Part shown: one piece after another, positions 3,694 through 33,826 of the stretch
Layout of the letters: every line of letters starts with the position of its first letter
Position numbering within the stretch: position 1 is the first letter of the stretch
Source: a virus
Virus record (IMG/VR): IMGVR_UViG_3300020411_004289
Coordinates: 1 to 64,000 of that record
Direction: 5' to 3' (one strand)
Length of the DNA stretch: 64,000 nt
Position numbers and translations under genes: made by a program
The notes under the pieces: model-generated
The model's input: only the letters and a program-made list of their open reading frames with translations
Told to the model about the DNA's origin: nothing
Databases searched by the model: none

Positions 3694-3936
3694 ATGAGTA
3701 AAAAAAGCAATAAAGCACAATCAGATTATATTACAAACGACATATCTGTTGCTGCGTTTTTGATGATGAAAGGATTAACCTTGACGAAGGCTTCTAGTGC
3801 TGGAGGCCGTTATGAGTTTATTTTTGATGACCCACAAAATGAAGCTTTGAACCTAGTGTTAAGTTTTCCCGGGACGCCTTTTGGTCAATATGATTCTTAC
3901 CTAAGAATGCTTAGAGGCCTGGTGAAAAATAAATAA
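3694..3936 (+). CDS. Small DUF5659-like protein
   Basis: An 80-residue soluble protein. The centre (ISVAAFLMMKGLTL, then GGRYEFIFDD) resembles the short DUF5659 domain seen in many phages, in which a helix is followed by a beta hairpin and a DP motif. The C-terminus has a helical YDSYLRMLRGLVKNK stretch. Function is unknown. It sits 24 bases after a fibre gene and is followed by a 202-base gap, so it is probably the last gene of that transcript. The match is by eye and modest. Confidence 0.6.
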   Translation: MSKKSNKAQSDYITNDISVAAFLMMKGLTLTKASSAGGRYEFIFDDPQNEALNLVLSFPGTPFGQYDSYLRMLRGLVKNK

Positions 3937-15618: not shown

Positions 15619-15622
15619 AAAG

Positions 15623-15994: not shown

Positions 15995-16007
15995 AAAAGG
16001 TAGAATA

Positions 16008-16400: not shown

Positions 16401-16741
16401 TGGAAAAAACAACAAGACCTTGGGGAACTTATGAAGTTCTTTTAGATGACGAAGATTGCAAAGTAAAAAAAATAACCGTAAATCCAGGTGAAAATCCTAG
16501 CTATCAATACCACCATAAAAGAGCAGAGGATTGGATTGTCGTCTCTGGGCATGGAGAGGTCTGCTTAGATGACAGCACATTTTCTGTCACAGCCGGCGAC
16601 AGAGTTCATGTTCCTATAAAGTCTAGACATACAATTAAAAATTGTGGCGATGAGTCTTTGATTTTTATTGAAATTCAGACAGGATCTTACTTTGGAGAAG
16701 ATGACATTGTTCGCTTAGAAGACAAGTATGGAAGAACTTAA
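16400..16741 (+). CDS. Cupin, mannose-6-phosphate isomerase type II C-terminal-like
   Basis: A 113-residue single cupin. TRPWGTYEVLLDD at the N-terminus and VKKITVNPGENPSYQYHHKRAEDWIVVSG match the C-terminal isomerase domain of ManC/AlgA-type proteins, including the HH and E metal ligands, followed by GDRVHVPIKSRHTIKN. The nucleotidyltransferase half of ManC is absent. The start is GTG overlapping the upstream TAG, with AAGGGA before it. It may isomerise a hexose phosphate, or be a sugar epimerase-like cupin. Confidence 0.85.
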   Translation: MEKTTRPWGTYEVLLDDEDCKVKKITVNPGENPSYQYHHKRAEDWIVVSGHGEVCLDDSTFSVTAGDRVHVPIKSRHTIKNCGDESLIFIEIQTGSYFGEDDIVRLEDKYGRT

Positions 16742-18296: not shown

Positions 18297-19258
18297 CAAC
18301 CCCTAGATTATTTGTAGGCCCAATGTCAAAAGAAATAGTTGACATTTCAATAGAATATTCAAATTCTAAAAATCGATTAGGGCTTATTCCTTCTAGAAGA
18401 CAAATAGAAAATGTCGGAGGGTATGTCAACAATTGGACAACAAAAAACTTTGCTGAGTATGTTAAGCAAAAAAGCGAAAATGTGCTTTTAGTAAGAGATC
18501 ACGGCGGACCTGGGCAAGGAAGTAAAGACGACAGTGGGTTAAAAAGCTTGGAGAGTGATATTTCTTCTGGGTTTAACATATTACATATTGACCCATGGAA
18601 AAAGGCAAAATCCTTAGAAGACGGAATTCAAAAAACTAGCGCGCTTATAAAGCACTGTTGTAATAAGGATAAAAATATACTATTTGAAGTTGGGACTGAA
18701 GAAGCGATTTATGCATATTCACAGACTGACTTAGAAAAAATATTATGTGAACTACAAAAAAGTCTAGGCGAAGACTTTGAAAGAATAAAGTACGCTGTAG
18801 TTCAATCGGGTGTAAGAATTAGTGGTACTTCTAATATCGGTGTCTTTAATTCAAAACGTCTTTACGCTATGACAGAAGTTTGTCGAAAGTATAATGTTAC
18901 TAGCAAGGAGCATAACGGAGACTACCTAAGTTTCTTAGAAATCAAAGAAAGAGCTGAACAAGGTCTAGACTGTATTAATATAGCCCCTGAGTTTGGAGTT
19001 ACACAAACTAGAGTAATGTTAGATAATCAAATGATAGATCTAGATGAATCATTTTCTACATGCTTAGAGGTTAATAAGTTTTCTAAGTGGTTACCTGAGG
19101 ATAAAAAACAAAATCCATCAAAAAGATTAATAGTAGAAGTTTCTGGTCACTACTGCTTCACTAAAGAGCCTTTTTTTAACTCAACTGAAAAGTCTTATTA
19201 TAATCTTAAGCAGTTGATTTTTGATAGATTTGATCAAATACACAACGCGTGGAGATAG
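18293..19258 (+). CDS. TIM-barrel protein, GatZ/KbaZ (tagatose-bisphosphate aldolase subunit)-like
   Basis: A 321-residue protein. VLLVRDHGGPGQG near residue 65, FNILHIDPWKK near residue 95 and LFEVGTEEAIYAY near residue 135 resemble the non-catalytic class II D-tagatose-bisphosphate aldolase subunit family, which keeps a (beta/alpha)8 barrel. No partner GatY/KbaY gene is seen, so it probably acts alone, perhaps as a sugar lyase, aldolase or isomerase. The ATG at 18293 has GAGAGGA before it and overlaps the upstream stop, which is better than the ATG at 18269. Assignment is by motif memory and moderate. Confidence 0.6.
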   Translation: MTTPRLFVGPMSKEIVDISIEYSNSKNRLGLIPSRRQIENVGGYVNNWTTKNFAEYVKQKSENVLLVRDHGGPGQGSKDDSGLKSLESDISSGFNILHIDPWKKAKSLEDGIQKTSALIKHCCNKDKNILFEVGTEEAIYAYSQTDLEKILCELQKSLGEDFERIKYAVVQSGVRISGTSNIGVFNSKRLYAMTEVCRKYNVTSKEHNGDYLSFLEIKERAEQGLDCINIAPEFGVTQTRVMLDNQMIDLDESFSTCLEVNKFSKWLPEDKKQNPSKRLIVEVSGHYCFTKEPFFNSTEKSYYNLKQLIFDRFDQIHNAWR

Positions 19259-19261
19259 ATA

Positions 19262-20053
19262 ATGGAAAAAAAGGGCATAAATTTAGGGTGTGGAATAAAA
19301 TGGAAAAATGATCTAAAGAGAAATATCAAAAACTATCAGGGGCTGGAATATTGGGACGGTCTAGACCAGCATTTAGGAAACGCTTACTTTTCTCCCGAGT
19401 ATTTTTTCCCTTATAACAATGAGTCAATTGACTGGTTTTTTTCTTCACATTTCTTCGAACACATAGATGAAAACACGGCTAAGCAATTAGTGAAAGAGTC
19501 TTATAGGAGTTTAAAGAAGGGCGGTATAATGAGAACAATAGTGCCTGACTTTGAATTACTTCATAGAAAATACCTAGAAAAAGATTATAATTTTTTTGAT
19601 AGAAGCATCTCCATTGGTAAAGTCTATCATTGTTGGTCTAAATACGGAATAGATCCGACTTACGAAAATATGGTCTTAAACTGGTTTTCTACATTTCACT
19701 TTTGTGAAAAAGGTGACGGCAAAGTTACTTTTAGAGGTCCTCCAATATTAGGAGAACCAAAAGACTATGGTTATAAACTTTTAAATACGATGTCAACTCA
19801 AGAAGTTTGTGATATTCTTCACAAGAAAGTGTTTGATCTTAAAGAAAAGTATCCAAAAGAAGTAGTCACACAGCACATCAGTTTTTGGAACTATGAAAAA
19901 CTAGAAGAAATAATGCTAAGCGCAGGATTTTCTCAGGTTTATATTTCTGGTTTTGAAGAGTCTAAAGAGTCATCTATGAGGACTCCACTATTCGATGTTT
20001 GGGAAAAGATTGGAGAGAAACCCATGAATTTGTATGTTGAAGCTGTAAAATAG
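19262..20053 (+). CDS. SAM-dependent methyltransferase-like protein
   Basis: A 263-residue protein. INLGCGIKWKND is motif I of class I methyltransferases, and FFSSHFFEHIDENTAKQLV and SLKKGGIMRTIVPDFE are typical of the methyltransferase type 11 group often found in polysaccharide clusters. It follows the aldolase-like gene by three bases. A 45-base gap with a fresh GAGGAA ribosome-binding site separates it from the next gene. The acceptor is not identifiable. Confidence 0.78.
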   Translation: MEKKGINLGCGIKWKNDLKRNIKNYQGLEYWDGLDQHLGNAYFSPEYFFPYNNESIDWFFSSHFFEHIDENTAKQLVKESYRSLKKGGIMRTIVPDFELLHRKYLEKDYNFFDRSISIGKVYHCWSKYGIDPTYENMVLNWFSTFHFCEKGDGKVTFRGPPILGEPKDYGYKLLNTMSTQEVCDILHKKVFDLKEKYPKEVVTQHISFWNYEKLEEIMLSAGFSQVYISGFEESKESSMRTPLFDVWEKIGEKPMNLYVEAVK

Positions 20054-20098
20054 GCTTGAAAAAACTAAAAAAAACTATTACTATTTTTGTGAGGAAAA

Positions 20099-20935
20099 AT
20101 GAAAGTAGCAATATGTTTACACGGTCTAGTAGGAAACGCAGGATCAAAGTCAGGCTATTCAGGGTCTGATCCTAGAGTACTAGATATAGCTTCTAAAAAT
20201 TATCTAAAAAACATAATTGTGCCGAACAATGCTGATGTTTTTTTACACACTTGGGATACACAACTAGAAGACGAAGTACGATCTGCGTTTTCACCTTGTG
20301 ATGCAATTTTCGAACATCAAATAGTATTTGACGTTCCTTCACATGTACGAGCGAACGGAGCACCAGATCCTGAAAAAAGAAAGCAGAATCACTATAGTCG
20401 ATGGTATTCTGTAAAGAAGTCTGTAGAACTTAAGCGAAAATGGGAAGAAAAAAACAATTTCAAGTATGATTGTGTGATGATTGGAAGGTTTGATACTTCA
20501 TGGGAAACCACCGTCGACTTTTCTTTGTTTGACATGAAAAAGAACTATACTGGTCGCTGGTGTCGCTTAATTTATCAAGGTAGAGATATCTACAACGCCG
20601 GCCGCGGCCCATTTTTTCAAATACAAGATCAGATAGACATGTCACAAGTTCAGCACACACATAAGTTTGATGGTGATGTCCCTAATCAAGGTCTTTCAGA
20701 TATCTGGTTTTTTGGAAATTCAGGGGACATGGATAAGTTTTCTTTGCTATATGATCACTTGGACACTTACACAGTTCCCGGTCAATGTCCCACCATGGAA
20801 AATACAATATCAAGTCATCGATTATCAGAATACCATCTTAAGCAAATAGGAATATACAAAAACTTAGAAAGAGTATTTCACAGATACTGTGATTTTCCTC
20901 TAGTAAGAACAAAATACTTTGGGTCAAAGAAGTAA
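20099..20935 (+). CDS. Putative glycosyltransferase-like protein of unknown family
   Basis: A 278-residue protein with an excellent GAGGAA ribosome-binding site. The start MKVAICLHGLVGN, then ADVFLHTWDTQ, SRWYSVKKSVELK and YDCVMIGRFDT resemble uncharacterised proteins of polysaccharide clusters that are thought to be GT-A-like, with GRFDT in the DxD position. No membrane segment is present. The glycan-operon context supports a transferase, but no family is firmly recognised. Confidence 0.55.
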   Translation: MKVAICLHGLVGNAGSKSGYSGSDPRVLDIASKNYLKNIIVPNNADVFLHTWDTQLEDEVRSAFSPCDAIFEHQIVFDVPSHVRANGAPDPEKRKQNHYSRWYSVKKSVELKRKWEEKNNFKYDCVMIGRFDTSWETTVDFSLFDMKKNYTGRWCRLIYQGRDIYNAGRGPFFQIQDQIDMSQVQHTHKFDGDVPNQGLSDIWFFGNSGDMDKFSLLYDHLDTYTVPGQCPTMENTISSHRLSEYHLKQIGIYKNLERVFHRYCDFPLVRTKYFGSKK

Positions 20936-20938
20936 ATT

Positions 20939-21532
20939 ATGAAAAGCAAGACAGAAAAAAGAAAAGTAGTGATTGATGCAGGTGCACATATAGGTCAGTC
21001 TATAGACAGACTAAGAGAAAAGTTTAAGAATGACAATATTGAGATTTACTCTTTTGAGCCTCACCCAAGATGTTTCCTAGCAGCAAAAACAAGAGAAAAT
21101 GAATCAACAAAAGTTTTTAACAAAGCTGTGTGGATCGAAGACGGAACGATTGAATTCTATTGTGATTCTTTAGATATTAACACTGCTCGACCTCTCCCGG
21201 GAGAAGCATCTACGATGTTTGAGGTAAAAACAAAAGGAAGATCTCTGCCCGGGCAGTTTGACAGTAGAAGTAAAATTACAGCAAAGTCATTTGATTTCAG
21301 TAAATGGATAAAAGAAAATTTTGATAAAGAAGACTTTATTCACCTTAAAATGGACATAGAAGGTGCAGAATATCAGGTTTTAAGAAAAATGGTAGATGAT
21401 GATTCTATTTCTTTTATTAATGAGCTTGATGTAGAGTTTCACTGGGAAGCCATACAACTACCAAAAAAAGAGCATGATGAAGTCTTAGACATTCTTTCAA
21501 ATTATGATCTTTTATTGACAATTCACGAATAA
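20939..21532 (+). CDS. FkbM-family methyltransferase
   Basis: A 197-residue protein showing the FkbM layout: VVIDAGAHIGQSIDRL (SAM-binding motif I), IYSFEPHPRCFLAA (acidic motif II) and FIHLKMDIEGAEYQVLRKM (the FkbM K-D-EGAE motif). FkbM enzymes O-methylate sugars and related hydroxyl groups. It is the gene directly before the phosphonate cassette and could cap the glycan. The family call is secure; the substrate is not known. Confidence 0.88.
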   Translation: MKSKTEKRKVVIDAGAHIGQSIDRLREKFKNDNIEIYSFEPHPRCFLAAKTRENESTKVFNKAVWIEDGTIEFYCDSLDINTARPLPGEASTMFEVKTKGRSLPGQFDSRSKITAKSFDFSKWIKENFDKEDFIHLKMDIEGAEYQVLRKMVDDDSISFINELDVEFHWEAIQLPKKEHDEVLDILSNYDLLLTIHE

Positions 21533-21547
21533 TACAGAGGTTTATCC

Positions 21548-22984
21548 ATGGAAAGAGACATATTTTGTATCGCGACTGATAGACTAACAGTCCACAGAAT
21601 GGATCTTTACGGAGGCTACAATAAGTTTCCTAATATTGATAAAATCGCCAAAGGCGGCACTATTTTTAAGCATCCTGTTGCTTGTTCTGCTTCAACTTTG
21701 TCATGTCATGCATGTGAATGGACAGGCCTAAATCCATGGGAAATTCATGACGATATGGAGGTGCCGTATGAACACAGAAATTACGATCTTCCAATCGCCA
21801 CAAAAGAATCAATGTTTACCGACTTGATAGAGCAAGGCTATGACATTAATCTAGTCTTCATGCACAAGCCTAACAAATACTTTCCTAGTTCTTATAATCA
21901 GATAATTCCGATATTCCAAAACACAGGCGCAAAAGTGCACTGTATACCAGAGTGGGACACTCCTGAAGGATTTGGCAATAATAGAGTAAAACATATAATG
22001 TACTGTGCTAGCATTATTGAAAACAATAGAAAGTTAGGAAAAAAGACATTTGTCTGGACGAAGATCGCCGGCATGTATCAGTCGCAAAATCCAGACAAAA
22101 GTATGATTCACTTAGGGCACATTTATCACAACTATGCTAATCAGACTAGAGTTACTAGAGATGATGTTTGGCAGTGTGCAGTTGATGACGGATTAGGAAA
22201 ATTTCTAAACCACTTTGACTATGGCAAAGAGAACTCCACTTGCCCAGAAGTAATATTCGCTTCAGATCACGGTTCTTGGTATGGTGAAAGAGGTAATGTC
22301 TACTACGGTTATGATCTGCATGAAGAGATTATTAGGGTTCCTTTAGTTTCTTCTTACGGTACGAAAGATGACGGAACACGTGTAGCTGAAAATGTCATGC
22401 CTAGAGTAGTAGAAGAACCTTTTAGCATGAGAAGGTTTAGAGACTTTGTTTCTGAAAAATACCGTCCAGTAAAAGATGCTGAAGAGTTTGTCTATGCAGA
22501 AACTCTTTTTCCAGGACAAGTAGCAAATCAACCAGGTCAAAAATACTCAAAAGCAAAGTCAAGCATCCGCTGGGGAAAATACAAGTACATATACAACCCA
22601 TTTGGCGAAGATGGAATGTCTGCTCATCCTACAGAAGAATTATACGATATAGACTACGACCCACATGAAAAGTTTAACTTAGCAAAATATGCCGACGAAT
22701 GGATCGATTGTTCTCGATCTCAAGCAACAGTTGCATGCGACGGAAAGAGTGGTTTAAGATTTTGTGATGTGTTATCTAGATTTCACAGTGACATAGAAAT
22801 TGTCAAAAGAGAAGAAGACCCGCCCGAAGCTGCTCATTGTGTTAAAAAGAATCCTAACGAATCCGGATCAGGAGAGCGGACTGGCTGGGGTGAGGTATCA
22901 AATATTCTGAACATTCTTAGACAAAAGATTAAAGTTTTATGGTACAGTACAGGCCGCGAAAGCGCTTATAGGGAAATATCATGA
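21548..22984 (+). CDS. Alkaline phosphatase/sulfatase superfamily enzyme
   Basis: A 478-residue protein with a sulfatase-type layout: IFCIATDRLT (one metal-ligand Asp at residue 11), PNIDKIAKGGTIFKHPVACS and TGLNPWEIHD around the nucleophile, FASDHGSWYGERG (Asp240, His241) and LHEEIIRVPLV. The formylglycine motif CxPxR is replaced by CSAST (residues 46-50), so a classic sulfatase activity is doubtful; Ser or Thr could serve as in phosphatases, phosphodiesterases and phosphoethanolamine transferases. It has no signal peptide. It overlaps the PEP mutase gene by four bases, suggesting that it hydrolyses or transfers a phosphonate or phosphate ester in the cytoplasm. Confidence 0.8.
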   Translation: MERDIFCIATDRLTVHRMDLYGGYNKFPNIDKIAKGGTIFKHPVACSASTLSCHACEWTGLNPWEIHDDMEVPYEHRNYDLPIATKESMFTDLIEQGYDINLVFMHKPNKYFPSSYNQIIPIFQNTGAKVHCIPEWDTPEGFGNNRVKHIMYCASIIENNRKLGKKTFVWTKIAGMYQSQNPDKSMIHLGHIYHNYANQTRVTRDDVWQCAVDDGLGKFLNHFDYGKENSTCPEVIFASDHGSWYGERGNVYYGYDLHEEIIRVPLVSSYGTKDDGTRVAENVMPRVVEEPFSMRRFRDFVSEKYRPVKDAEEFVYAETLFPGQVANQPGQKYSKAKSSIRWGKYKYIYNPFGEDGMSAHPTEELYDIDYDPHEKFNLAKYADEWIDCSRSQATVACDGKSGLRFCDVLSRFHSDIEIVKREEDPPEAAHCVKKNPNESGSGERTGWGEVSNILNILRQKIKVLWYSTGRESAYREIS

Positions 22985-24294
22985 AGGAAAAAACACCTTT
23001 TAAGACTGTTTACGTTGGAATGTGTGCTGACTTGCTTCATGAGGGTCATCTAAACATTCTTAAACATGCCAGAAGTCTTGGAAGTGTAACTGTAGGAATT
23101 CTTACTGATGAAGCGGTTGCTTCTTACAAAAGGGTACCAACTCAAAACTTTAATGCAAGATGTACAATTGTTGAGAGTCTAAGATACGTTGAAAATGTAA
23201 TACCCCAATCTTCCTTAAGCTATGTTGACAACTTAAGACTAGTCAAGCCTGACTATGTCGTTCATGGAGATGACTGGAAGACAGGGGTGCAGCAAAAAAT
23301 ACGCAAAGAAGTAATAGAAACGCTAGCAGAATGGGAAGGAGAATTAGTAGAAGTGCCCTACACTCCAGGGATATCATCTACGCAGCTAAACAATAAAGTA
23401 AGAATGCTAGGTACTACCCCCGGTGACAGGCTTAAAAAACTCGGAATTCTGCTCAAAAATAAAAATATTGTTAGAGCTATTGAGACTCACAACGGGCTCA
23501 CAGGTCTAATTGCCGAAAAAACAAAAGCTGCACACAATGGCGAGCCTAGAGAGTTCGATGCAATGTGGCTTAGTAGTCTAACACACTCAGCATCAAAAGG
23601 CAAGCCAGACATACAGTATGTCGATATTACATTAATGTCACAAACTATTGGTGAAATATTCGACATTACCTCTAAGCCTATGATAGTAGATGCGGATAGT
23701 GGAGGCTTAAACGAGCATTTTAAATTGATGGTAAAAACTTTAGAGCGTTTAGGCGTATCTGCTGTTATTATTGAAGACAAGACAGGCGTGAAGAGAAATT
23801 CTTTGTTCGGAACTTCAGTCCCACAAACTCAAGAGACAATAGAGAAATTTTCAGAAAAGATAGCAGAAGGAAAGAGAGCTCAGGTATCAAGCGACTTTAT
23901 GATTATTGCTAGAATTGAAAGTCTAATACTGGGTAAAGGACAAGAAGATGCTCTAAAAAGAGCAGATGCTTACGTTAAGGCTGGCGCTGATGCAATCATG
24001 ATTCATAGTAAGTCTGATACTCCGCAAGAAATCCTAGACTTCATTGCCACATTTAGAAAGGAAGACACTTATACACCAATTATAGTTGTACCCTCTACAT
24101 ACAATACCATTACCGAGACTGAATTACAACTTGCCGGCGCAAACTTAGTAATATATGCAAATCACCTTCTTAGAAGCGCATATCCAGCAATGCTAAATAC
24201 AGCAAAGAAAATTCTGGAAAATGAACGTTCTTTTGAAGCAAACGATCAGTGTTTGTCAATTAAGGAAATTATTCGTCTTATAGGTGACTTTTAA
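22981..24294 (+). CDS. pepM: Cytidylyltransferase-PEP mutase fusion (Fom1-like)
   Basis: A 437-residue fusion. Residues 1-140 are a cytidylyltransferase: HEGH at 20-23 and ISSTQL at 131-136. Residues about 155-437 are phosphoenolpyruvate mutase, which rearranges PEP to phosphonopyruvate and forms the C-P bond: WLSSLTHSASKGKPD at 196-210, DADSGG at 237-242, and the diagnostic EDKx5NS motif as EDKTGVKRNS at 265-274. The last motif separates true mutases from isocitrate lyase relatives. The same domain order occurs in Streptomyces Fom1, whose cytidylyltransferase acts on 2-hydroxyethylphosphonate. The decarboxylase and reductase genes follow immediately. PEP mutase is near certain; the cytidylyltransferase substrate is inference. 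Confidence 0.95.
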   Translation: MKEKTPFKTVYVGMCADLLHEGHLNILKHARSLGSVTVGILTDEAVASYKRVPTQNFNARCTIVESLRYVENVIPQSSLSYVDNLRLVKPDYVVHGDDWKTGVQQKIRKEVIETLAEWEGELVEVPYTPGISSTQLNNKVRMLGTTPGDRLKKLGILLKNKNIVRAIETHNGLTGLIAEKTKAAHNGEPREFDAMWLSSLTHSASKGKPDIQYVDITLMSQTIGEIFDITSKPMIVDADSGGLNEHFKLMVKTLERLGVSAVIIEDKTGVKRNSLFGTSVPQTQETIEKFSEKIAEGKRAQVSSDFMIIARIESLILGKGQEDALKRADAYVKAGADAIMIHSKSDTPQEILDFIATFRKEDTYTPIIVVPSTYNTITETELQLAGANLVIYANHLLRSAYPAMLNTAKKILENERSFEANDQCLSIKEIIRLIGDF

Positions 24295-24295
24295 C

Positions 24296-24709
24296 ATGGA
24301 GTGCAGTATAAAAGAACTAAGTTGCATAGACACAGTGAGTAACAGCAATTTTTTTACCGGTGTGCCTGACAGTCTTTTAAGTGAATTTATAAAGACAATT
24401 GACGAAAAGAAGAATGTAGTTCACGTGCCGGCGGTAAATGAAGCACATGCAGTATCTATTGCATTCGGAGCAATGCTCACCGGAAATGATGCATGTGTAT
24501 ATCTTCAAAATTCAGGCTTAGGAAATATTGTCAACCCAATTACTAGTTTGTGTATGCCGTCTAATGTTTTTCCATTTTTAATAATCGGACACAGACATAC
24601 CCTGGCGCAACATAAAGTCATGGGAGAGATTGATAAAGATTTGATGCAGCTCTTGAAGTACCCAGAAGATCGATATGTGATAGTTTCTGGAGGGAACAAT
24701 GAAAAGTAG
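24296..24709 (+). CDS. ppd: Phosphonopyruvate decarboxylase, N-terminal (PYR) subunit
   Basis: A 137-residue thiamine-diphosphate PYR domain. FFTGVPDSLL at 19-28 is typical of phosphonopyruvate decarboxylases; VNEAHAVSIAFGA carries the cofactor-activating Glu49; YLQNSGLGNIVNPITSL at 69-85 is also characteristic. The ATG at 24296 follows the upstream stop by one base with AGGTGA before it, which fits better than an in-frame GTG at 24284. The enzyme pulls the unfavourable mutase equilibrium by decarboxylating phosphonopyruvate to phosphonoacetaldehyde. The usual single chain of about 380 residues is split here; the partner is the next gene, which overlaps by 11 bases. Confidence 0.93.
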   Translation: MECSIKELSCIDTVSNSNFFTGVPDSLLSEFIKTIDEKKNVVHVPAVNEAHAVSIAFGAMLTGNDACVYLQNSGLGNIVNPITSLCMPSNVFPFLIIGHRHTLAQHKVMGEIDKDLMQLLKYPEDRYVIVSGGNNEK

Positions 24710-25169
24710 AAAGCAAGCCCTATCAGATATTTTTGAAAAGCATGGTAGTAGCTCTATTTACGTAACATCCACTGGCTATATCTCTAGAGCAACATATGAT
24801 CTTTTAAAAGACGAAAATTGTATATTTTACATGAACGGGAGCATGGGACTGGCTCCAGGAATTGGTATAGGTTTAGCACTTAATACAGAAAAAGATGTAG
24901 TTGTAATATCTGGAGATGCATCTCTGTTAATGCATTTAGGGTTGACACATACTGTAAGAGATTTGAATTTACAGAATCTGCATGTTTATATCTTGGACAA
25001 CAATTGCCATGAGTCTGTAGGGGCTCAACCATGTTCAGCTTTAGAAAAAAGCTATCCAGGCATAACACAGATAGTACCGATTAATCGTGAAGGCAAAACA
25101 CCAAGGGTAGGAATTACTTTTGAAGAAAATGTCAAACAAATAAAAATAGCATTGCATTCAGGAAACTAG
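24699..25169 (+). CDS. ppd: Phosphonopyruvate decarboxylase, C-terminal (TPP-binding) subunit
   Basis: A 156-residue thiamine-diphosphate binding domain. GSMGLAPGIGIGLAL at 47-61 and GDASLLMHLG at 72-81 followed by LDNN at 99-102 reproduce the GDG-x(25-30)-NN cofactor motif, with Ala in place of the third Gly. It lacks the PYR domain, which is encoded by the overlapping upstream gene, so the two chains should form the active heteromer. A simple frameshift is unlikely because each part has its own ATG and complete domain, and the overlap suits translational coupling. Related split enzymes include sulfopyruvate decarboxylase (ComD/ComE). Confidence 0.92.
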   Translation: MKSRKQALSDIFEKHGSSSIYVTSTGYISRATYDLLKDENCIFYMNGSMGLAPGIGIGLALNTEKDVVVISGDASLLMHLGLTHTVRDLNLQNLHVYILDNNCHESVGAQPCSALEKSYPGITQIVPINREGKTPRVGITFEENVKQIKIALHSGN

Positions 25170-25171
25170 AC

Positions 25172-25948
25172 ATGTTTTTAGTTTGTTCCAAGTCCACTAG
25201 AAAATTTTTTCCTGACATAGAAAATGTAAAAATTGTTTCCGGAAAACTAGATACCAGCATCTTAAGAGAAGAGAATACACAATGTGATGTAATAGCATGT
25301 GGTGGAGGAACTGTTATTGATGCAGCAAAAATTATATCTAGTGATCCGATAACATGTTACCCAACCACTGCAGCCGGCTCTTCTAGCACTGAGCATTCAG
25401 TTATATGGGATGGTGCTCAAAAAAAATCCATCAAGTGCAGCATTCCTAAGAAGGTTATTGTAGAGCCTAATTTTTTAGAAAACATTCCTAGTGATGTACT
25501 TTTTGAAACTAGAGTTGATGTTGTATCACACTGTTTTGATTCGCTTTACTCCAAGCAATCGTGCAAAGAAAGTGAAAAGTACATTTATATGGCATTGGAG
25601 ATTTTAGAAAACAAAAAAGGGACGAATGCTGATTTAGTTCAAGCAGGAAATCTTGCTGGAAAAGCAATACAAATAACGCCTACAACAATTCTACATTCTC
25701 TTTCTTATCCTTTGACCGGAAGATACGGAATTAGCCATGGAAAAGCAATGTCGTTTTTTCTACCTCAGCTTTCTGAGTACAAAGGGTTTGATTATAAAAA
25801 ATACATTAGTGGAAATTTTTACTCTGTTCCAAAAAACATAGACATGGACTCATGTCTAGCTGAATCACTGTCATATAGTAAGTTACACAATTTTTTATTT
25901 GAAACAGAGAACGACATACAAAATATCAAAGGAATACTTCGATTATGA
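25172..25948 (+). CDS. Compact Fe-dependent alcohol dehydrogenase (phosphonoacetaldehyde reductase)
   Basis: A 258-residue member of the group III metal-dependent alcohol dehydrogenases. ACGGGTVIDAAK at 42-53 is the NAD(P)-binding turn and TTAAGSSSTEHS at 65-76 the conserved phosphate loop. The metal ligands are all present with family spacing: Asp116, His120, His175 and His189. The usual length is about 380 residues; part of the N-terminal Rossmann region and much of the C-terminal helical domain are missing. After the decarboxylase, the expected reaction is reduction of phosphonoacetaldehyde to 2-hydroxyethylphosphonate, as by FomC/PhpC. It overlaps the radical SAM gene by four bases. Confidence 0.9.
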   Translation: MFLVCSKSTRKFFPDIENVKIVSGKLDTSILREENTQCDVIACGGGTVIDAAKIISSDPITCYPTTAAGSSSTEHSVIWDGAQKKSIKCSIPKKVIVEPNFLENIPSDVLFETRVDVVSHCFDSLYSKQSCKESEKYIYMALEILENKKGTNADLVQAGNLAGKAIQITPTTILHSLSYPLTGRYGISHGKAMSFFLPQLSEYKGFDYKKYISGNFYSVPKNIDMDSCLAESLSYSKLHNFLFETENDIQNIKGILRL

Positions 25949-27465
25949 AAAAGATCTGTCTTGTTATACCTCCGTCTCCTTTTTTGCTAGATGAGAGAGT
26001 TTTTGTACAATTAGGAGTATTAAAGATCGCTGCAGTTCTAGAAGAAGAAAATATTGGCGTTGATGTACTAGATCTGAATGGCGTGGAAAACTTCTTAGAT
26101 GCTTTAGAAGATTATATCGTAACCCACAGTGAAACACATGTGTTTGGAATTACAGCAACTACCCCTCAAATGCCTCATGCAGTTCAAATAAACAACAGAA
26201 TAAAGACTATCAATAAATCACTCAAGACAATTATAGGTGGCCCTCATGTGACTTTAATGCATGCAGCTGCAAAAAGAGAAAAAGCAAAAATAAATGCAGG
26301 GAGTTTGCGTGCCACAAAAGAAGTAGAAAATATTAGTCGTCTATTTGATGTTTTGGTTTGTGGTGACGGAGAATTAGCGATAACCAAAGCGATGGATATC
26401 GATACCGGTGTCATCGATGCAGATGATAGAAAGAGTGAACTGTTTCTTTCTAGAAACAAGCTTAAAGAAATGCCAATGCCGGCACGTCACTTAGTAGATC
26501 TAGACTCATATCATTACGAAATCGAAGGCCACAGGGCGACTAGCTTAATAGCACAACTAGGTTGTCCGTTTCAGTGTACGTTTTGTAGTGGAAGAAACTC
26601 ACCTTTCTTAAGAAATATTCGAGTACGCCCTGTAGATTTAATCGTAGAAGAAGTCAAGAGACTACATTTAGAGTACGGCTATACCGGCTTTATGTTTTAT
26701 GATGATGAACTAAATGTCAACAAAAAGCTAATGATTCAGTTAATGAACAAGGTATCAGATCTTCAAGATAATCTAGGTGTTGACTTTAGATTAAGAGGTT
26801 TTGTAAAAGCTGAGCTTTTTACAGAAGAACAAGCCAAGGCAATGTACCGAGCCGGCTTTAGATGGCTACTAACAGGCTTTGAGTCGGGCGATGATAGAAT
26901 ACTAGACAACATAAAAAAGCGTGCATCCAAAGAAGACAATACAAGGTGTGTTGAGATCGCAAAAAACAATAACCTTAAAGTAAAAGCTCTGATGTCAATA
27001 GGACATGCCGGCGAAAGCAGAGAATCTATCGCCAATACACAGCAATGGCTACTCGATGTCGAGCCAGATGACTTTGACTGCACTATAATAACGACATACC
27101 CAGGGTCTCCATACTTTGATGAAGCAATAAAGACAGGAAATCACTACACATATACTTCAGATGTGTCTGGCGATAAGCTTTATCAAGCACCGCTAGATTA
27201 TTTGGTTGAACTGGACTACTATAAGGGTGATCCCGACGGCGGCTACGTTTCTTATGTGTGGACTGACCATGTTTCACAAGAAGAGTTGGTTAGTGAAAGA
27301 GACAAGCTGGAAAAAACTGTAAGAGAAAAACTAAACATTCGCTTTAATCCTGCGCGCCCCGGAATAAAGTACGAACATTCAATGGGAATGGGAAATACAC
27401 AGCTTCCAGCTAGCATTCTAAGATCTTCTATGAACGATCTAAGCAATGAACAAAAAGGAAAATAG
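25945..27465 (+). CDS. B12-binding radical SAM protein, candidate phosphonate methylase (Fom3-like)
   Basis: A 506-residue protein. Residues 1-150 form a cobalamin-binding-like Rossmann domain (LGVLKIAAVLEEENI, TATTPQMPHAVQI, TIIGGPHVT). The radical SAM core follows, with Cys207, Cys211 and Cys214 in GCPFQCTFCSG holding the 4Fe-4S cluster, then FMFYDDELNVN and LLTGFESGDD. Such enzymes methylate unactivated carbon or phosphorus, as Fom3 (HEP-CMP) and PhpK do. Position as last gene of the phosphonate run, overlapping the reductase, suggests a phosphonate intermediate as substrate. The superfamily is secure; methylase function and substrate are inference, since some B12-radical SAM enzymes catalyse other reactions. 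Confidence 0.88.
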   Translation: MKKICLVIPPSPFLLDERVFVQLGVLKIAAVLEEENIGVDVLDLNGVENFLDALEDYIVTHSETHVFGITATTPQMPHAVQINNRIKTINKSLKTIIGGPHVTLMHAAAKREKAKINAGSLRATKEVENISRLFDVLVCGDGELAITKAMDIDTGVIDADDRKSELFLSRNKLKEMPMPARHLVDLDSYHYEIEGHRATSLIAQLGCPFQCTFCSGRNSPFLRNIRVRPVDLIVEEVKRLHLEYGYTGFMFYDDELNVNKKLMIQLMNKVSDLQDNLGVDFRLRGFVKAELFTEEQAKAMYRAGFRWLLTGFESGDDRILDNIKKRASKEDNTRCVEIAKNNNLKVKALMSIGHAGESRESIANTQQWLLDVEPDDFDCTIITTYPGSPYFDEAIKTGNHYTYTSDVSGDKLYQAPLDYLVELDYYKGDPDGGYVSYVWTDHVSQEELVSERDKLEKTVREKLNIRFNPARPGIKYEHSMGMGNTQLPASILRSSMNDLSNEQKGK

Positions 27466-27467
27466 AA

Positions 27468-28517
27468 ATGAAAATATTCTTAGAAACATACGACCAGAGA
27501 TACGGAGATAGAATTGCGTTTTTAGGCACGATTCAGAATCAGCTAAGTGATCATCACGATATTATGTTTGTTAGTTCGTACGAAGAAGCAGACATTCTTA
27601 TGAGTCAGCAGGTTTCTTATTTGCCCAATCTAGACTTCTGTCTTAACCAAAAAAAGCCTGTCATAATCATTGAGGTAAATGACTCTGCTTCAATTAAAAA
27701 TAATGAAATGAGAAAAGCAATAAAAAATCCAGTTGTAAAAGGGTTTTTTAAAGTAACCAATTTCAAAGATATCGAAAATCACAACAAACCTACTACAGGT
27801 GAGAGATACCATGCAAATTTCATAAATCAGCATGCAAACTTAGGAGAGGTCAAAGAGCATATCGTAAAATTTACAGACGAAGAGCTTCTAAAAATTCAGT
27901 GTGCATCGCCATCTTTTCTGAACTTTAGAATGGATCAGGTTAGAAAAGCAGATGGACTAGCTAACAGTAACAGACCTATTGATGTAAATTTTGCAGGTAC
28001 AACAGACTATACAAAAAATAAAAATTATGTCAATCTACCTGAAGGTGATCCTAAGCTAGCCTTACCACTACTAATCGGCATGCATAGAAAATGGGCAATC
28101 TCAGAGATTGTAGACGCAACAAAAGATCAAAACTTAAAGTCAATAATTGTAGATCATAAACCAATGTCACAACCTGAGTATTGGAACTCTCTTTATAGTT
28201 CTAAGGTGTGTATTTCTCCATGGGGATTTGGGGCTTATAACTGGAGAGATTATGAGGCAATCTATTTGGGCGCTTTGCTAGTAAAGCCTAATACTGACTT
28301 TCTAGAGACATATTGCGATCTCTTTAGAGCCGGCGAAAACTATGTTGAATGCGATCAAAATTTTGCTAATCTTCAATCCGTTTTAAAAGATTGTCTAGAA
28401 AATTATAATGATTATACACCCATAAGAGAGAATGCTCTTAAGACTCTAAATGATCATCACGATATAGAAAAAATAGCCGCAAGGTTTGCAAAACAATTAG
28501 GCAATTGTCTAAAGTAA
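27468..28517 (+). CDS. Glycosyltransferase-like protein (exostosin/CgeB type C-terminus)
   Basis: A 349-residue protein that starts two bases after the radical SAM gene, with AAGGAAAA before it. The C-terminal half has SSKVCISPWGFGAYNWRDYE followed by AIYLGALLVKPNTDFLET, the donor-side segment of GT-B-like transferases of the exostosin and spore-coat CgeB groups. The N-terminal half is poorly conserved. It may transfer a sugar, or the activated phosphonate unit, onto the glycan. The latter is speculation from position. Confidence 0.65.
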   Translation: MKIFLETYDQRYGDRIAFLGTIQNQLSDHHDIMFVSSYEEADILMSQQVSYLPNLDFCLNQKKPVIIIEVNDSASIKNNEMRKAIKNPVVKGFFKVTNFKDIENHNKPTTGERYHANFINQHANLGEVKEHIVKFTDEELLKIQCASPSFLNFRMDQVRKADGLANSNRPIDVNFAGTTDYTKNKNYVNLPEGDPKLALPLLIGMHRKWAISEIVDATKDQNLKSIIVDHKPMSQPEYWNSLYSSKVCISPWGFGAYNWRDYEAIYLGALLVKPNTDFLETYCDLFRAGENYVECDQNFANLQSVLKDCLENYNDYTPIRENALKTLNDHHDIEKIAARFAKQLGNCLK

Positions 28518-28540
28518 CCAAGTTAGGAGGTAACGTTACG

Positions 28541-29383
28541 ATGTATAACATTGGAATTATCGGCCATGGATTTGTAGGCACAGCAATCGTACATGGATTT
28601 TCTTTACATGCAAATATAAAAATATACGACAAGGATGCAACTAAGTCGACTCACTCACTAGAAGAAGTAGTAAATAGTTCAGATTTTGTCTTTATTGGAG
28701 TGCCGACTCCTATGACTAATGTATTGGGTGGAAAAATAGACTTGTCTATAATGGACAGTGTAATGTCAGAAATTAACGACCTACACAAAGGAAATGACAC
28801 CGTCTTTATTATTAAGTCAACAGTTGTCCCAGGAACAGTTGAAAAATATATTGAGATGTACCCGAACCTAGAGATTGCTTTTAATCCTGAGTTTCTAACT
28901 GAGCGAGCTGCCCGTCTAGACTTTATTAATACAGCTAGAATAGTAATAGGCGGATCTGAAAGCACTTGTCAAAAAGTAGAAGATCTTTACAGAGTAAGAT
29001 TTCCTTATACGAAAATTATTAAGACTGATCCTGCCACAGCACAGTTTATAAAATACATGGCTAACTGTTTTTTTGCTACAAAGGTATCGTTTATGAACGA
29101 AATGAGGCAAGCAGCAAATAAGCTAGGGTGTGACTGGGATGATACTATGGAAGGTTTCATAACAGATGGTAGAATTGGAAATTCACATTTAGACGTTCCT
29201 GGGCATGATGGTCATTGTGGTTTCGGGGGAAAATGCTTCCCAAAAGATTTAAATGCGTTTATTTCTCTTTTTGAGTCTATAGGAATAGATCCACTAGTCA
29301 TGAAAGCAGCCTGGGAAAAGAATTTAGAAGTTAGAAAAGAGTTAGACTGGAATTCAATTGAAGGAGCGGTTTCAAAGAAATGA
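28541..29383 (+). CDS. UDP-glucose/GDP-mannose dehydrogenase family protein, C-terminally short
   Basis: A 280-residue enzyme. The ATG at 28541 has a perfect AGGAGG ribosome-binding site 10 bases before it, which beats a TTG at 28505. IGIIGHGFVGTAI is the NAD-binding motif, NPEFLTERAA the central signature, and GFGGKCFPKD the catalytic loop with Cys232. The family is normally 390-450 residues; the C-terminal UDP-sugar-binding domain is missing. It would oxidise C6 of a nucleotide sugar to a uronic acid, or act on an alternative substrate because of the missing domain. It is followed by two epimerase genes. Confidence 0.85.
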   Translation: MYNIGIIGHGFVGTAIVHGFSLHANIKIYDKDATKSTHSLEEVVNSSDFVFIGVPTPMTNVLGGKIDLSIMDSVMSEINDLHKGNDTVFIIKSTVVPGTVEKYIEMYPNLEIAFNPEFLTERAARLDFINTARIVIGGSESTCQKVEDLYRVRFPYTKIIKTDPATAQFIKYMANCFFATKVSFMNEMRQAANKLGCDWDDTMEGFITDGRIGNSHLDVPGHDGHCGFGGKCFPKDLNAFISLFESIGIDPLVMKAAWEKNLEVRKELDWNSIEGAVSKK

Positions 29384-30285
29384 AATCCGTTGTAACAGGT
29401 GGTTGCGGCTTCATAGGAAGTCATATCGTAGATGCGCTGCATGATCTAGGGCACACAGTAGAAGTCATTGATGATCTGTCTGCTCCTGAAAATGAAAAAT
29501 TTTATTTTCATAATAATGATAAAAAAGTAACATATCACCAGCTAGATATCAGCAAAGATGACTGTGAAAATATTTTTGAAAATGTAGACTTTGTATTTCA
29601 TTTAGCAGCCCGAAGTAGAATTCAACCAACAATAGGAAGCCCGGGCGAATGTTTCGAGGTAAATGTGGTTGGCACGCAGAGGGTCTTAGAGTGGTCTAGA
29701 ATGCATTCTGCAAAGAGACTAATATATTCAGGTACGTCATCACTATATGGTCACCAGAATGTAATTCCGTTTCAGCCAAATATGCCCACTGATTGCTTAA
29801 ACCCATATTCGATGTCAAAATGGATGGGCGAGCAAATTTGTAAATTATACAGCCAGATGTATACTATGCCAAGTATTGTTTTGCGATATTTTAATGTCTA
29901 CGGCCCACGAGAGCCCGTTAAAGGACACTACGCTCCGGTTATCGGTCTATTCAAGAGGCAAGTAAAAGAAGAAAAACCTATGACAATAGTAGGGGATGGA
30001 AATCAAAAGAGAGACTTCACATACATCGATGATGTGGTTCAGTCAAATATTTGCGCAATGAACTTGCCAGAAAATTTTTCAAAATTTGAAATCTATAATG
30101 TGGGAACAGGTAAAAATTATAGCATAAATGAAGTAGCTAATCTGGTGAGTAGCGACGCAGAAAGAATTAATATTTCATCCCGTCCGGCCGAAGTAAGAGA
30201 AACTTTAGCAGACATACAAAAAACTTCAAATGACTTAGGGTGGAGCCCTAAATTCAGCTTAGAAGAAAAAATACTTTCATACTAA
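29380..30285 (+). CDS. NAD-dependent nucleotide-sugar epimerase/dehydratase
   Basis: A 301-residue extended short-chain dehydrogenase. VTGGCGFIGSHIVDAL is the NAD-binding motif, HLAARSRIQPTI the active-site region, SGTSSLYG the catalytic Ser/Thr strand and NPYSMSKWMGEQ the YxxxK pair, followed by LRYFNVYGP. It overlaps the dehydrogenase gene by ATGA. It probably converts UDP- or GDP-sugars, such as a C4 epimerisation or uronate decarboxylation. Exact chemistry cannot be read. Confidence 0.9.
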   Translation: MKSVVTGGCGFIGSHIVDALHDLGHTVEVIDDLSAPENEKFYFHNNDKKVTYHQLDISKDDCENIFENVDFVFHLAARSRIQPTIGSPGECFEVNVVGTQRVLEWSRMHSAKRLIYSGTSSLYGHQNVIPFQPNMPTDCLNPYSMSKWMGEQICKLYSQMYTMPSIVLRYFNVYGPREPVKGHYAPVIGLFKRQVKEEKPMTIVGDGNQKRDFTYIDDVVQSNICAMNLPENFSKFEIYNVGTGKNYSINEVANLVSSDAERINISSRPAEVRETLADIQKTSNDLGWSPKFSLEEKILSY

Positions 30286-30297
30286 AGAGGAAAAAAG

Positions 30298-31236
30298 ATG
30301 AGCAAATTATTAGTAACAGGAGGTTTAGGATTTATCGGTTCAAACTTAGTAAAAAAGCTAAGTGAGATGGAATTAGATGTCGTAGTTGTTGACAACAGAT
30401 CGTCGAGCAGAGAAGATGCAAATGAAGTAGAAATGTCTTTGCCTGAAGTTGAGTTTATTAATGCATGCTACACAGATGAAAGCCTGATTAGAAGAATTAA
30501 AGAAAAAGAATTTGACACAGTTTTTCATGTTGCTGCTATCCCTAGAGTTAGTTACTCTGTTGAGAACCCAACAGTAACGACTGACAATAACGTCGCAAAG
30601 ACGGTAAAATTAATGGAGGCATGTGCCGGAAATATTAGAAGATTTGTCTTTTCTTCTTCCTCTTCTGTTTACGGAGGTGCTGATATTTTACCAACTCCAA
30701 ACAGTCATTCAAAAAGTCCAAAATCTCCATACGCATGGCAAAAAAGCTGTATTGAGGATTTAATAGAAGTGTTTTGTAATCTTTATGAATTTGATGCTGT
30801 AAGCTTGAGATACTTTAATGTCTTTGGTCCAGGCCAATTTGGAGGATCTGCGTATGCAACTGCAATTTCTGCATGGTGTCATGCGATAAAGACCGGAGGG
30901 GTACTGAGAAAAGACGGCACCGGAGAGCAGTCTAGAGACATGTGCTACGTCGATAATGTTGTTAATGCAAATATTCTTGCAATGAATTCTAAGAAACAAT
31001 TCTTAGGGCAAAAATTTAATGTTGCTTGCGGAGACAGAACATCCAATAATCAAATACTAGACGCACTAACAGAAAGGTTTGGAAAGTTAAGCATTAACAA
31101 TGTGCCCTTCAGGAAGGGAGACGTAATGCATACTCAGGCTGATATAAGTCAAACTACTGCTGAGCTAGGTTATACACCGTCTGTTAGATTTTGGGAAGGA
31201 TTTAAAAAGACATTAGAATGGTGGGATCTGGCCTAA
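30298..31236 (+). CDS. NAD-dependent nucleotide-sugar epimerase
   Basis: A 312-residue extended short-chain dehydrogenase with GAGGAAAA before the ATG. VTGGLGFIGSNLVKKL binds NAD, FSSSSSVYGG and SPYAWQKSCIEDL hold the Ser and YxxxK catalytic residues, and LRYFNVFGPGQ follows. It is a diverged paralogue of the preceding gene. Together with the sugar dehydrogenase this suggests in-phage production of a special nucleotide sugar, likely a uronic acid derivative or UDP-GlcNAc C4 epimer. Confidence 0.9.
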   Translation: MSKLLVTGGLGFIGSNLVKKLSEMELDVVVVDNRSSSREDANEVEMSLPEVEFINACYTDESLIRRIKEKEFDTVFHVAAIPRVSYSVENPTVTTDNNVAKTVKLMEACAGNIRRFVFSSSSSVYGGADILPTPNSHSKSPKSPYAWQKSCIEDLIEVFCNLYEFDAVSLRYFNVFGPGQFGGSAYATAISAWCHAIKTGGVLRKDGTGEQSRDMCYVDNVVNANILAMNSKKQFLGQKFNVACGDRTSNNQILDALTERFGKLSINNVPFRKGDVMHTQADISQTTAELGYTPSVRFWEGFKKTLEWWDLA

Positions 31237-31237
31237 C

Positions 31238-31675
31238 ATGTCGAATAAAAAATTCAATACCGGGATAATATGTGGCTCATTTGATGTATTGCATCCTGGT
31301 TATACTCGTATGTTTGAAGACGCAAAAACAGTTTGCAAAACTTTAATTGTCGCCTTACAAGGAGATCCGACGATTGATCGACCAAAAAAATGCAAACCTG
31401 TACAGTCACTTTCAGATCGTATTGAGATTCTAGGAGCGCTAAAACATGTTGATCATATTGTCACTTATAACACAGAAGCTGAGCTAGAAAAACTCCTGGG
31501 CGAAGTACAGTATGATGTGAGAATCTTAGGGACAGATTATCAGAATAGAAAAGACTATACAGGGTTCAAGTACGGAAAGCCAGTATATTTTCACAAGAGA
31601 GATCATGATTACTCTACAACTAAACTTAAAGACTTGATATACAGAGAAAGAAGTCGCACCCTTGAAAACAATTGA
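31238..31675 (+). CDS. Cytidylyltransferase-like protein (TagD family)
   Basis: A 145-residue single-domain nucleotidyltransferase. ICGSFDVLHPGYTRMF aligns with the HxGH-bearing start of glycerol-3-phosphate and related cytidylyltransferases, but the second His is Tyr (HPGY at 19-22). The middle QSLSDRIEILGALKHVDHI and the C-terminal HDYSTTKLKDLI keep the RxxxL and (I/Y)STT-K signatures. It may make a CDP- or CMP-activated alcohol phosphate, possibly for glycan tailoring. This is a second cytidylyltransferase in addition to the one fused to PEP mutase. Confidence 0.82.
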   Translation: MSNKKFNTGIICGSFDVLHPGYTRMFEDAKTVCKTLIVALQGDPTIDRPKKCKPVQSLSDRIEILGALKHVDHIVTYNTEAELEKLLGEVQYDVRILGTDYQNRKDYTGFKYGKPVYFHKRDHDYSTTKLKDLIYRERSRTLENN

Positions 31676-31705
31676 AGACTTAACTAGAAACATCTATATT
31701 TTAAT

Positions 31706-32530
31706 ATGAATAATTTTCCGACAAATAAACCACATGTATCATATTCAGAAGTAAGGTGCTGGAAAGAATGCCCATATCGACACAAACTTCTGCATATTGA
31801 CAAAATAGACGTTTTTAAACCTTCTCCGTATTTAGACTTTGGGACACAAGTACACGAAGGTTGTGAAAGCTATTTGAACACCAGAACAATTCCAAAGCAA
31901 AAACTTTTAGAGAATATTAGGGCTGCATGGGAGAAAAATGGCTTTGATGATCCCGAATGGGTAAAGCAACAGCCCGGGTGGTACAAATATCATCCAGTTG
32001 AGGAGTGGTGTACATGGGCTTCGAATATGTGGGATGATGTTCCTAAATTCTTAGATGAAACTTTTCCTAATTGGGAGCCAGTCTCTGCAGAGGAAGAGCT
32101 TTACGAGGATATCGAAAACAAAGATATAAAATTTAAGGGTTTTATTGATGTAATCATAAAAACTCCTCGAAAAAATGGTACTTGGAAGTATTGGATTCTC
32201 GACTGGAAAACTGCAAAGTCATATGGTTGGGATAGAAGAAAAAAGCAAGATTTTCTAACACAAGCACAAATTGTACTTTACAAGCATTTTTGGGCAACTA
32301 AAAACAATATACCTTTAAAGGATGTAAGTTGTGGCTTTATCCTTTTAAAGCGAGGCGGCAAGCCAGGAAATATGTGCGACTTTTTTCAAATATCATCAGG
32401 CCCAAAAGCAATTGAGAAGGCCAGAAAAATGGTCAAAAATATGATAGGCACTGTACAAAGAAAGTTTTTTATGAAAAACAGGGATTCTTGCACATTTTGT
32501 GACTTTAAAAATACGCCTCACTGTACATAA
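31706..32530 (+). CDS. PD-(D/E)XK nuclease with Cas4/AddB-type Fe-S cysteines
   Basis: A 274-residue nuclease. HVSYSEVRCWKECPYRHKL and FGTQVHEGCESY (His50) are RecB/Cas4-type starts; FKGFIDVIIK and WILDWKTAKSY supply the catalytic Asp and D-x-K residues. Cysteines at 18 and 22 plus a C-terminal CTFCDFKNTPHC cluster suggest a 4Fe-4S site as in Cas4, Dna2 and AddB. It interrupts the glycan genes and is likely a recombination or replication exonuclease. The start follows an AT-rich TATATTTTAAT stretch rather than a clear ribosome-binding site. No cas1/cas2 or repeat array is nearby. Confidence 0.85.
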   Translation: MNNFPTNKPHVSYSEVRCWKECPYRHKLLHIDKIDVFKPSPYLDFGTQVHEGCESYLNTRTIPKQKLLENIRAAWEKNGFDDPEWVKQQPGWYKYHPVEEWCTWASNMWDDVPKFLDETFPNWEPVSAEEELYEDIENKDIKFKGFIDVIIKTPRKNGTWKYWILDWKTAKSYGWDRRKKQDFLTQAQIVLYKHFWATKNNIPLKDVSCGFILLKRGGKPGNMCDFFQISSGPKAIEKARKMVKNMIGTVQRKFFMKNRDSCTFCDFKNTPHCT

Positions 32531-32566
32531 TTTACTGGGCCTAAAACAAGAGTAGGATTATCTTAT

Positions 32567-33826
32567 ATGAATGAAAAGCTAAAAATATTAATATTGTCTG
32601 ATCACGCGCTTTCCACTTCGGGCGTGGGTTGCCAGACTCGATTTTTGGTTAACGGTCTAGTAGAAAAAGGCTGTTGGACTGTTAGGCAATTTGGTGCCGC
32701 AATCAAGCATGCCAATTATGATACTGTTGTTGTTAATGACGATTTCATCATCAAGCCGATCGATGGTTTCGGTAATAGAGATATGATTTTACAAACATTA
32801 GCAATGGAAAAACCTGACGTAATTCTTCTTTTTACAGACCCTAGATTCTTTATCTGGCTATGGGAAATGGAAGATGAGATTCATGATGTATGCCCAATAG
32901 CATACTGGCATGTCTGGGACAACAACCCACCGCCGGAATTTAATAAAGTGTTATATGAGTCAACTGATCTAATCAATTGTCACTCATATTTGACTTATGA
33001 AATTGTTTCAAAAATGTTCCCGAAGAAAACCAACTTTATTCCTCATTCTTTACCTGAAGATATCTTCTATCCACTTCCAAAAAATGAAATAAAGACGCAT
33101 AGAGTCAATCTAATAGGCTCGGAGCGAAAAGATCATTTTGTTGCATTTTGGGTTAATAGAAATGCTAGAAGAAAGAGGCCCAATGATGTTTTGTGGGGAT
33201 GGGCTGAGTTTGTTAAAAATGTAAAAGAAAAGCACGGAAAGTCTGATGTAACTCTTTTAATGCACACTGACCCACAAGATCAGGAAGGTCCAAACCTTTT
33301 AGCGACATGTGATCATTTAGGAATCAGTGACAGCGTAGTATTCTCAAATCAAAGAGTAGACTTTGATCAAATGAATATACTGCACAATATATCAGATGTT
33401 TGTGTAAACATTGCCTATGCCGAAGGATTTGGCTTGGCAACGTTAGAGGCTATGCAAACAGGAAATCCAATTATTGCGCTCAAGACAGGCGGTCTAACTA
33501 GACAGGTTGTTGATCATAGAGACGGCTCAGAAAATGGAATTGCACTTGATGTGTCCTATAGATCTTTAGTAGGTTCACAAAATGTGCCTTACATTTACGA
33601 AGACTATTGTTCACATACAGACACTGCTGATGCATTAATGAAGATGTACGAGATGTCTAGTGAAGAAAGAGAATCGCTAGGGCAAAAAGCTAGAAATTAT
33701 GTACTCTCTGAATTTTCTCATCAAGGGACTATTGATGCTTGGCACGAGACTTTGTTTAACTTGGTTAAAAACTGGAAAGAGAGCAAAACACCCCAGTGGA
33801 CAATTGAAGAGGTGAATACAAAATGA
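32567..33826 (+). CDS. GT4 glycosyltransferase
   Basis: A 419-residue GT-B enzyme. The N-terminal domain begins KILILSDHALSTSGVGCQTR (acceptor-site loop). The C-terminal domain has AFWVNRNARRKRP with the donor phosphate-binding Arg/Lys and AYAEGFGLATLEAMQTGNP with the E-x7-E pair, followed by IALKTGGLTRQVV. Length is normal for the family. Its stop overlaps the start of the next GT4 gene, so the two probably act in sequence. Confidence 0.9.
   Translation: MNEKLKILILSDHALSTSGVGCQTRFLVNGLVEKGCWTVRQFGAAIKHANYDTVVVNDDFIIKPIDGFGNRDMILQTLAMEKPDVILLFTDPRFFIWLWEMEDEIHDVCPIAYWHVWDNNPPPEFNKVLYESTDLINCHSYLTYEIVSKMFPKKTNFIPHSLPEDIFYPLPKNEIKTHRVNLIGSERKDHFVAFWVNRNARRKRPNDVLWGWAEFVKNVKEKHGKSDVTLLMHTDPQDQEGPNLLATCDHLGISDSVVFSNQRVDFDQMNILHNISDVCVNIAYAEGFGLATLEAMQTGNPIIALKTGGLTRQVVDHRDGSENGIALDVSYRSLVGSQNVPYIYEDYCSHTDTADALMKMYEMSSEERESLGQKARNYVLSEFSHQGTIDAWHETLFNLVKNWKESKTPQWTIEEVNTK

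Follow-up and report, generated by a model that had tools for sequence, protein, structure and literature searches.

A B12-binding-type radical SAM enzyme beside a putative HEP-CMP cassette in the glycan island of a T4-like phage

The open reading frame at positions 25945 to 27465 of a 64,000-nucleotide stretch of viral DNA (positions 1 to 64,000 of IMG/VR record IMGVR_UViG_3300020411_004289, in the following the window) is, judged from its sequence, a B12-binding-type radical SAM enzyme at the superfamily level. Its fold class, cysteine motif, family, mobility and neighbourhood are established. With moderate confidence it is interpreted as the phage member of a widespread B12-binding radical SAM family serving surface-glycan biosynthesis, which would provide a swappable tailoring step for a sugar or glycan and not for a phosphonate. 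The first-pass annotation had proposed a B12 radical SAM enzyme in a phage operon and, in case of a methylase, a methylated phosphonate as the product. The enzyme type was retained and a complete HEP-CMP context was recognized around it, whereas phosphonate methylation was not supported by the family linkage and the tree.

The radical SAM gene and its genomic setting

The ORF is intact, starts with ATG, ends with TAG and encodes 506 amino acids. The following features were assigned to it:

25945..27465, + strand: B12-binding-domain radical SAM enzyme, 506 aa (Pfam, AF2 model, fold matches)
26008..26277, + strand: B12-binding (PF02310) stretch, residues 22-111 (Pfam, above the curated cut-off)
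26563..26586, + strand: CX3CX2C [4Fe-4S] motif, C207/C211/C214 (translation)

The Pfam matches to Radical_SAM (E value 3.2e-21, 76.7 bits) and B12-binding (E value 1.4e-12, 47.9 bits vs a cut-off of 32.1) are far beyond chance according to their scores. Thus, the cobalamin-binding-like domain and the CX3CX2C radical SAM core of the first-pass annotation were both recovered, by Pfam and by translation. The cysteines are spaced C207-x3-C211-x2-C214, and the CX3CX2C motif is kept in all 160 aligned family members. The B12-binding model scores above its curated cut-off in five of five members scanned (the window enzyme and four others), unlike in the HpnJ reference, which reaches just 24.5 bits, and the GGPHxT and T-x-T-T-P loops of this domain are conserved in the family. 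From these sequence features the enzyme is probably B12-dependent. The AlphaFold (AF2) model has a pLDDT of 92.9, and its nearest folds are TsrM, AprD4, MgmA, OxsB, TokK and CysS.

The complete virus record comprises 106,087 bases and belongs to a tailed phage. Baseplate-wedge genes are located at 38.5-40.9 kb, and the part of the record beyond the window contains the terminase, portal, head protease, major head protein, two tail-sheath proteins and the tail tube, as well as primase and SbcCD-like genes. Among the relatives of the terminase are many T4-type phages, the closest being those of Flavobacterium phage immuto and Microcystis phage Mel-JY01 (43%), and the phage carrying the radical SAM gene is T4-like. 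Around the gene extends a co-directional island, of which the following parts are relevant here:

9558..34986, + strand: glycan-biosynthesis island with glycosyltransferases, methyltransferases, sulfatase-like and sugar-nucleotide genes
27468..28517, + strand: putative GT-B glycosyltransferase directly downstream of the radical SAM gene (weak Glyco_trans_1_2 / RXYLT1_C matches)
28505..29383, + strand: UDP-sugar 6-dehydrogenase-like (TIGR03026, 4.4e-52, slightly under the cut-off)
29380..30285 and 30298..31236, + strand: two SDR sugar epimerase/dehydratase genes (Pfam Epimerase, 3.9e-59 and 1.1e-51; GalE-like match under the cut-off)

The start of the radical SAM gene overlaps the stop of an upstream iron-type alcohol dehydrogenase (Fe-ADH) gene by four bases (ATGA), and two bases separate its end from the next ORF. 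Together with the phage structural genes in the record, this arrangement agrees with the proposed phage operon. No Rfam match to a cobalamin riboswitch was found within 8-40 kb, and promoter and terminator sites predicted between 21 and 32 kb were no more numerous than in shuffles. Further upstream in the island, the gene at 16728-18296 encodes a nucleotidyltransferase fused with a domain similar to aminoglycoside/choline kinases, which recalls the combination of LicC with LicA.

Family, known relatives and neighbouring genes

Scans with the family alignment identified at least 95 bacterial and at least 98 viral loci. The members are 45-68% identical to the window enzyme over the full length (117 sequences non-redundant at 85%), and 121 alignment positions are conserved in at least 95% of the family rows. 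In a quick maximum-likelihood tree, which contained no Fom3 or CysS sequences and in which the order among the outside groups is unsure due to long reference branches, the family forms a single clade (SH-aLRT 100, stem 2.13) that excludes the true PhpK (L213, L214), BchE (L245, L246) and HpnJ (L243) references. The comparison with phosphonate enzyme groups, which the first-pass annotation had named as the refuting test for a phosphonate methylase, turned out against it within the reach of these references. The window enzyme itself falls into a 12-row set (SH-aLRT 100) consisting of viral contigs except for one Falkowbacteria row, which argues that the enzyme is kept in phages. It was found in 7 of 285 sampled Omnitrophota genomes. 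The sole match in phage isolates was one of 23.6% in Streptomyces phage SF3, and among the matches listed for plasmids nothing exceeded 21-26% identity. The enzymes thus form a large family of the B12 radical SAM type that is highly conserved and moves between bacterial phyla and phages in surface-glycan islands.

The NCBIfam scores of the window enzyme are 100.9 bits for HpnJ, 100.7 for PhpK, 92.9 for BchE, 90.5 for MJ_0865 and 83.9 for AprD4, all far below the cut-offs (TIGR03471, HpnJ: 577.6; TIGR04479, PhpK: 600; TIGR02026, BchE: 481.35; NF033070, AprD4: 500 bits). PhpK and the other radical SAM P-methyltransferases of TIGR04479 share its domains, but true PhpK-type proteins of two bacteria (Acanthopleuribacter, G052, and Sulfidibacter, G047) reach 695 and 599 and branch outside the clade of the family (SH-aLRT 100), so that a PhpK identity was rejected. 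The genomes of these two bacteria gave no match to the PEP mutase model at 1e-40. HpnJ and BchE have the same domains as well and were rejected by their scores and their position outside the clade. The radical SAM diol dehydratase AprD4 acts on an aminoglycoside sugar, has a similar overall fold and is the best solved-structure match of the family profile (8.5e-24), but the fold match has an identity of only 18%, and an AprD4 identity was discarded on the basis of the score. The CysS fold (9n1d; TMq 0.58, 15% identity) ranks below those of TsrM, AprD4 and MgmA.

The family loci contain glycosyltransferases, epimerases, FkbM methyltransferases and asparagine-synthase-like genes. Exostosin/Glyco_trans_1_2-type glycosyltransferases make up 10 of 230 genes adjacent to the enzyme vs 2 of 1196 distant genes, the latter being those beyond the third place from it in the same loci (p 5e-7; a second seed gave 10 adjacent vs 1 distant, p 1e-7), and GT2 enzymes are found 28 times among the adjacent and 35 times among the distant genes (p 5e-8). 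The profiles used here were built by iteration, and the p values are optimistic, as loci were counted as independent. This neighbourhood rich in glycosyltransferases makes a sugar nucleotide or glycan intermediate the likeliest substrate, and no single conserved partner gene names a substrate across the family loci. Several candidate partners were rejected: GT4 is not enriched next to the enzyme, UGDH occurs in 11 of 45 viral enzyme loci vs 6 of 26 viral PEP mutase loci (p 1.0), and a cytidylyltransferase is present in two bacterial loci and adjacent in none. The glycosyltransferase directly downstream in the window, which is just 13-19% identical to the aligned glycosyltransferases of family loci, found no support as a dedicated partner either, because a 65% homologue is retained in the phage relative L030, which has no radical SAM gene.

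According to the favoured glycan interpretation, the enzyme would bind cobalamin and a [4Fe-4S] cluster and cleave SAM, and the resulting 5'-deoxyadenosyl radical would modify a sugar nucleotide or the growing glycan. A neighbouring glycosyltransferase would then use the modified product. The modification would most plausibly be a C-methylation, although an AprD4-type deoxygenation or other radical sugar chemistry is also possible. Among the known reactions of B12 radical SAM enzymes, C-methylation is the most frequent; here it is a first guess for the chemistry and not a result. The reaction of one or two members could give that of the whole family.

A sugar radical SAM enzyme that does not methylate and catalyses a deoxygenation, epimerisation or rearrangement, perhaps without B12 as a methyl carrier and with an inherited B12-like domain, is a rather unlikely alternative. 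It would fit the sugar genes around family members and the similarity to AprD4, which leads the solved structures in the sequence comparison with the family profile and ranks high among the folds. AprD4 shows that a protein with such a fold can change a sugar other than by methylation, and it is not known to need cobalamin. Against it stand the B12-binding scores of the five members scanned, compared with the low score of the HpnJ reference, and the conserved loops of the domain.

The phosphonate cassette and its linkage to the enzyme

Directly upstream of the radical SAM gene, four ORFs were assigned to phosphonate synthesis:

22981..24294, + strand: fused cytidylyltransferase-PEP phosphomutase (CyT-PepM), Fom1 architecture (TIGR02320, 378.6 bits vs a cut-off of 319.55; CTP_transf_like, 4.9e-13)
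24284..24709, + strand: phosphonopyruvate decarboxylase (Ppd), N-terminal half of a split gene (TIGR03297, 4.6e-28)
24699..25169, + strand: phosphonopyruvate decarboxylase (Ppd), C-terminal half (TIGR03297, 3.1e-26)
25172..25948, + strand: compact Fe-ADH, probable phosphonoacetaldehyde reductase (TIGR03405 Phn_Fe-ADH, 1.6e-23)

CyT-PepM contains the motifs HEGH and EDKTGVKRNS. Each Ppd half scores under the full-length TIGR03297 cut-off, and the Fe-ADH is below the TIGR03405 cut-off with 258 aa vs 355. By analogy, these genes would constitute a complete 2-hydroxyethylphosphonate (HEP)-CMP cassette with the same functions as Fom1, Fom2 and FomC, whose route yields 2-HEP-CMP, the substrate of Fom3 (PMC8158854). 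The CyT-PepM fusion by itself is no sign of fosfomycin chemistry, because PF01467 is fused in about 24% of such PEP mutase enzymes (PMC6697681). In marine bacteria, phosphonate clusters adjoin glycan genes (PMC8931226). The start of the CyT-PepM gene overlaps by four bases with a gene for a sulfatase/alkaline-phosphatase-superfamily protein (21548-22984), which is present in L030 too and might have the phosphonate, or the ester of it with the glycan, as its substrate.

Two viral scans detected 34 loci with CyT-PepM or its CyT part; among the 26 long loci, the PepM catalytic part is found in 24 and Fe-ADH in 23, and a viral scan with Fe-ADH as the query gave no matches. At least 24 long viral loci (L013-L035, L203-L208) contain the cassette of CyT-PepM, split Ppd and compact Fe-ADH and lack the radical SAM gene. 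Full CyT-PepM relatives are also encoded in MT837901.1 and MT836947.1 (54% and 51% identity), two phage records from human faeces that carry no annotation. No report of phage-borne phosphonate synthesis was found in the open-access papers searched, which is not proof of absence. The phage HEP-CMP cassette looks more unusual than the radical SAM enzyme, and through it phages would contribute directly to the synthesis of phosphonates in the sea.

Evidence against the glycan interpretation is the immediate upstream neighbour, a phosphonate Fe-ADH overlapping by four bases, in a gene order that is repeated in the unrelated genome of an Omnitrophota bacterium (L047). There, a standalone CyT, a PepM-nucleotidyltransferase fusion, Ppd and Fe-ADH precede the radical SAM family member. 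These observations support a Fom3-like methylase that C-methylates HEP-CMP to 2-hydroxypropylphosphonate-CMP, which would then be placed on a glycan: the upstream genes provide exactly the functions whose product is the Fom3 substrate, and PhpK shares the top of the NCBIfam matches with one other model. Fom3 is built from a B12-binding and a CX3CX2C radical SAM domain like the window enzyme, which likewise sits with CyT-PepM, Ppd and Fe-ADH.

However, this linkage does not extend to the family, which mostly lacks phosphonate genes. Neither PepM nor Fe-ADH occurs in any of the 45 non-redundant family loci from viruses, and they occur in 1 of 73 bacterial loci, so that the linkage known from Fom3 is restricted to the window and L047; PepM is absent from the remaining 72 bacterial loci as well as from the 45 viral ones. 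Of 50 enzyme-encoding genomes, 37 gave no PEP mutase match at 1e-40, including the complete one of Sulfidibacter corallicola, many of the remaining genomes in this screen being MAGs and possibly incomplete. Conversely, the enzyme is missing from all 28 viral PepM records found first and from every other viral CyT-PepM locus, and the first 11 viral family records have no full PepM, with matches confined to the cytidylyltransferase part. The enzyme of L047 groups with those of other Omnitrophota without a phosphonate link and not with that of the window, so that the two phosphonate associations are separate and either arose twice or are due to chance. The PhpK score equals that of HpnJ and is far under the cut-off.

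The closest phage relative, L030, has kept most island genes at 57-81% identity and an intact phosphonate pathway. At the site of the radical SAM gene, its Fe-ADH and glycosyltransferase genes are 42 bases apart, and no match to the gene was found anywhere in the record, which suggests that the gene is an accessory trait and leaves the reliance of infection on host B12, as put forward in the first-pass annotation, no more than a possibility. A methylated phosphonate as the product is thus disfavoured, the family being mostly without a PEP mutase in locus or genome and the same operon existing in L030 without the enzyme. For these reasons the Fom3-like function is considered improbable. Slightly more doubtful still is that the phage has a full fosfomycin-like route to 2-hydroxypropylphosphonate-CMP, carried out by a family not known for phosphonates, with the product built into a glycan during infection. 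The best reading of the linkage is that two glycan-tailoring modules meet in glycan islands, where the enzyme would tailor the same glycan as the phosphonate module and not the phosphonate itself.

Other radical SAM proteins were observed at phosphonate loci. Four viral PepM records hold different ones (L022:6482-8023, L025:8680-10203, L028:6185-7708, L032:5950-7200) with 21-26% identity to that of the window, and these may be more suitable candidates for the tailoring of a phosphonate. The L047 phosphonate locus encodes two more radical SAM proteins (1772-3757 and 4194-5819) beside the family member.

Exchange of radical SAM genes in phage islands

A stray gene without a role in the phage, carried as a recombination passenger in a hypervariable island, would agree with the differing presence between close relatives and with the mobility of the family across phyla, but is very improbable given the intact ORF, the overlap with the upstream neighbour, the invariant catalytic cysteines and the nearly all-viral tree set. 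Under the preferred glycan interpretation, the gene would be an exchangeable cassette in a host-recognition glycan island, inserted between the HEP-CMP cassette and a glycosyltransferase.

Phage radical SAM cassettes as such are already known: host-recognition clusters of pelagimyophages are reported to differ in cassettes of radical SAM genes, which are present in some and absent from others (PMC7029224). As in the window, these genes are gained and lost in a tail-fibre/glycosyltransferase island, but the family of the window enzyme is not named in that paper and the word phosphonate is absent from it. Furthermore, radical SAM genes are on record among the metabolic genes of marine phages (PMC7150976).
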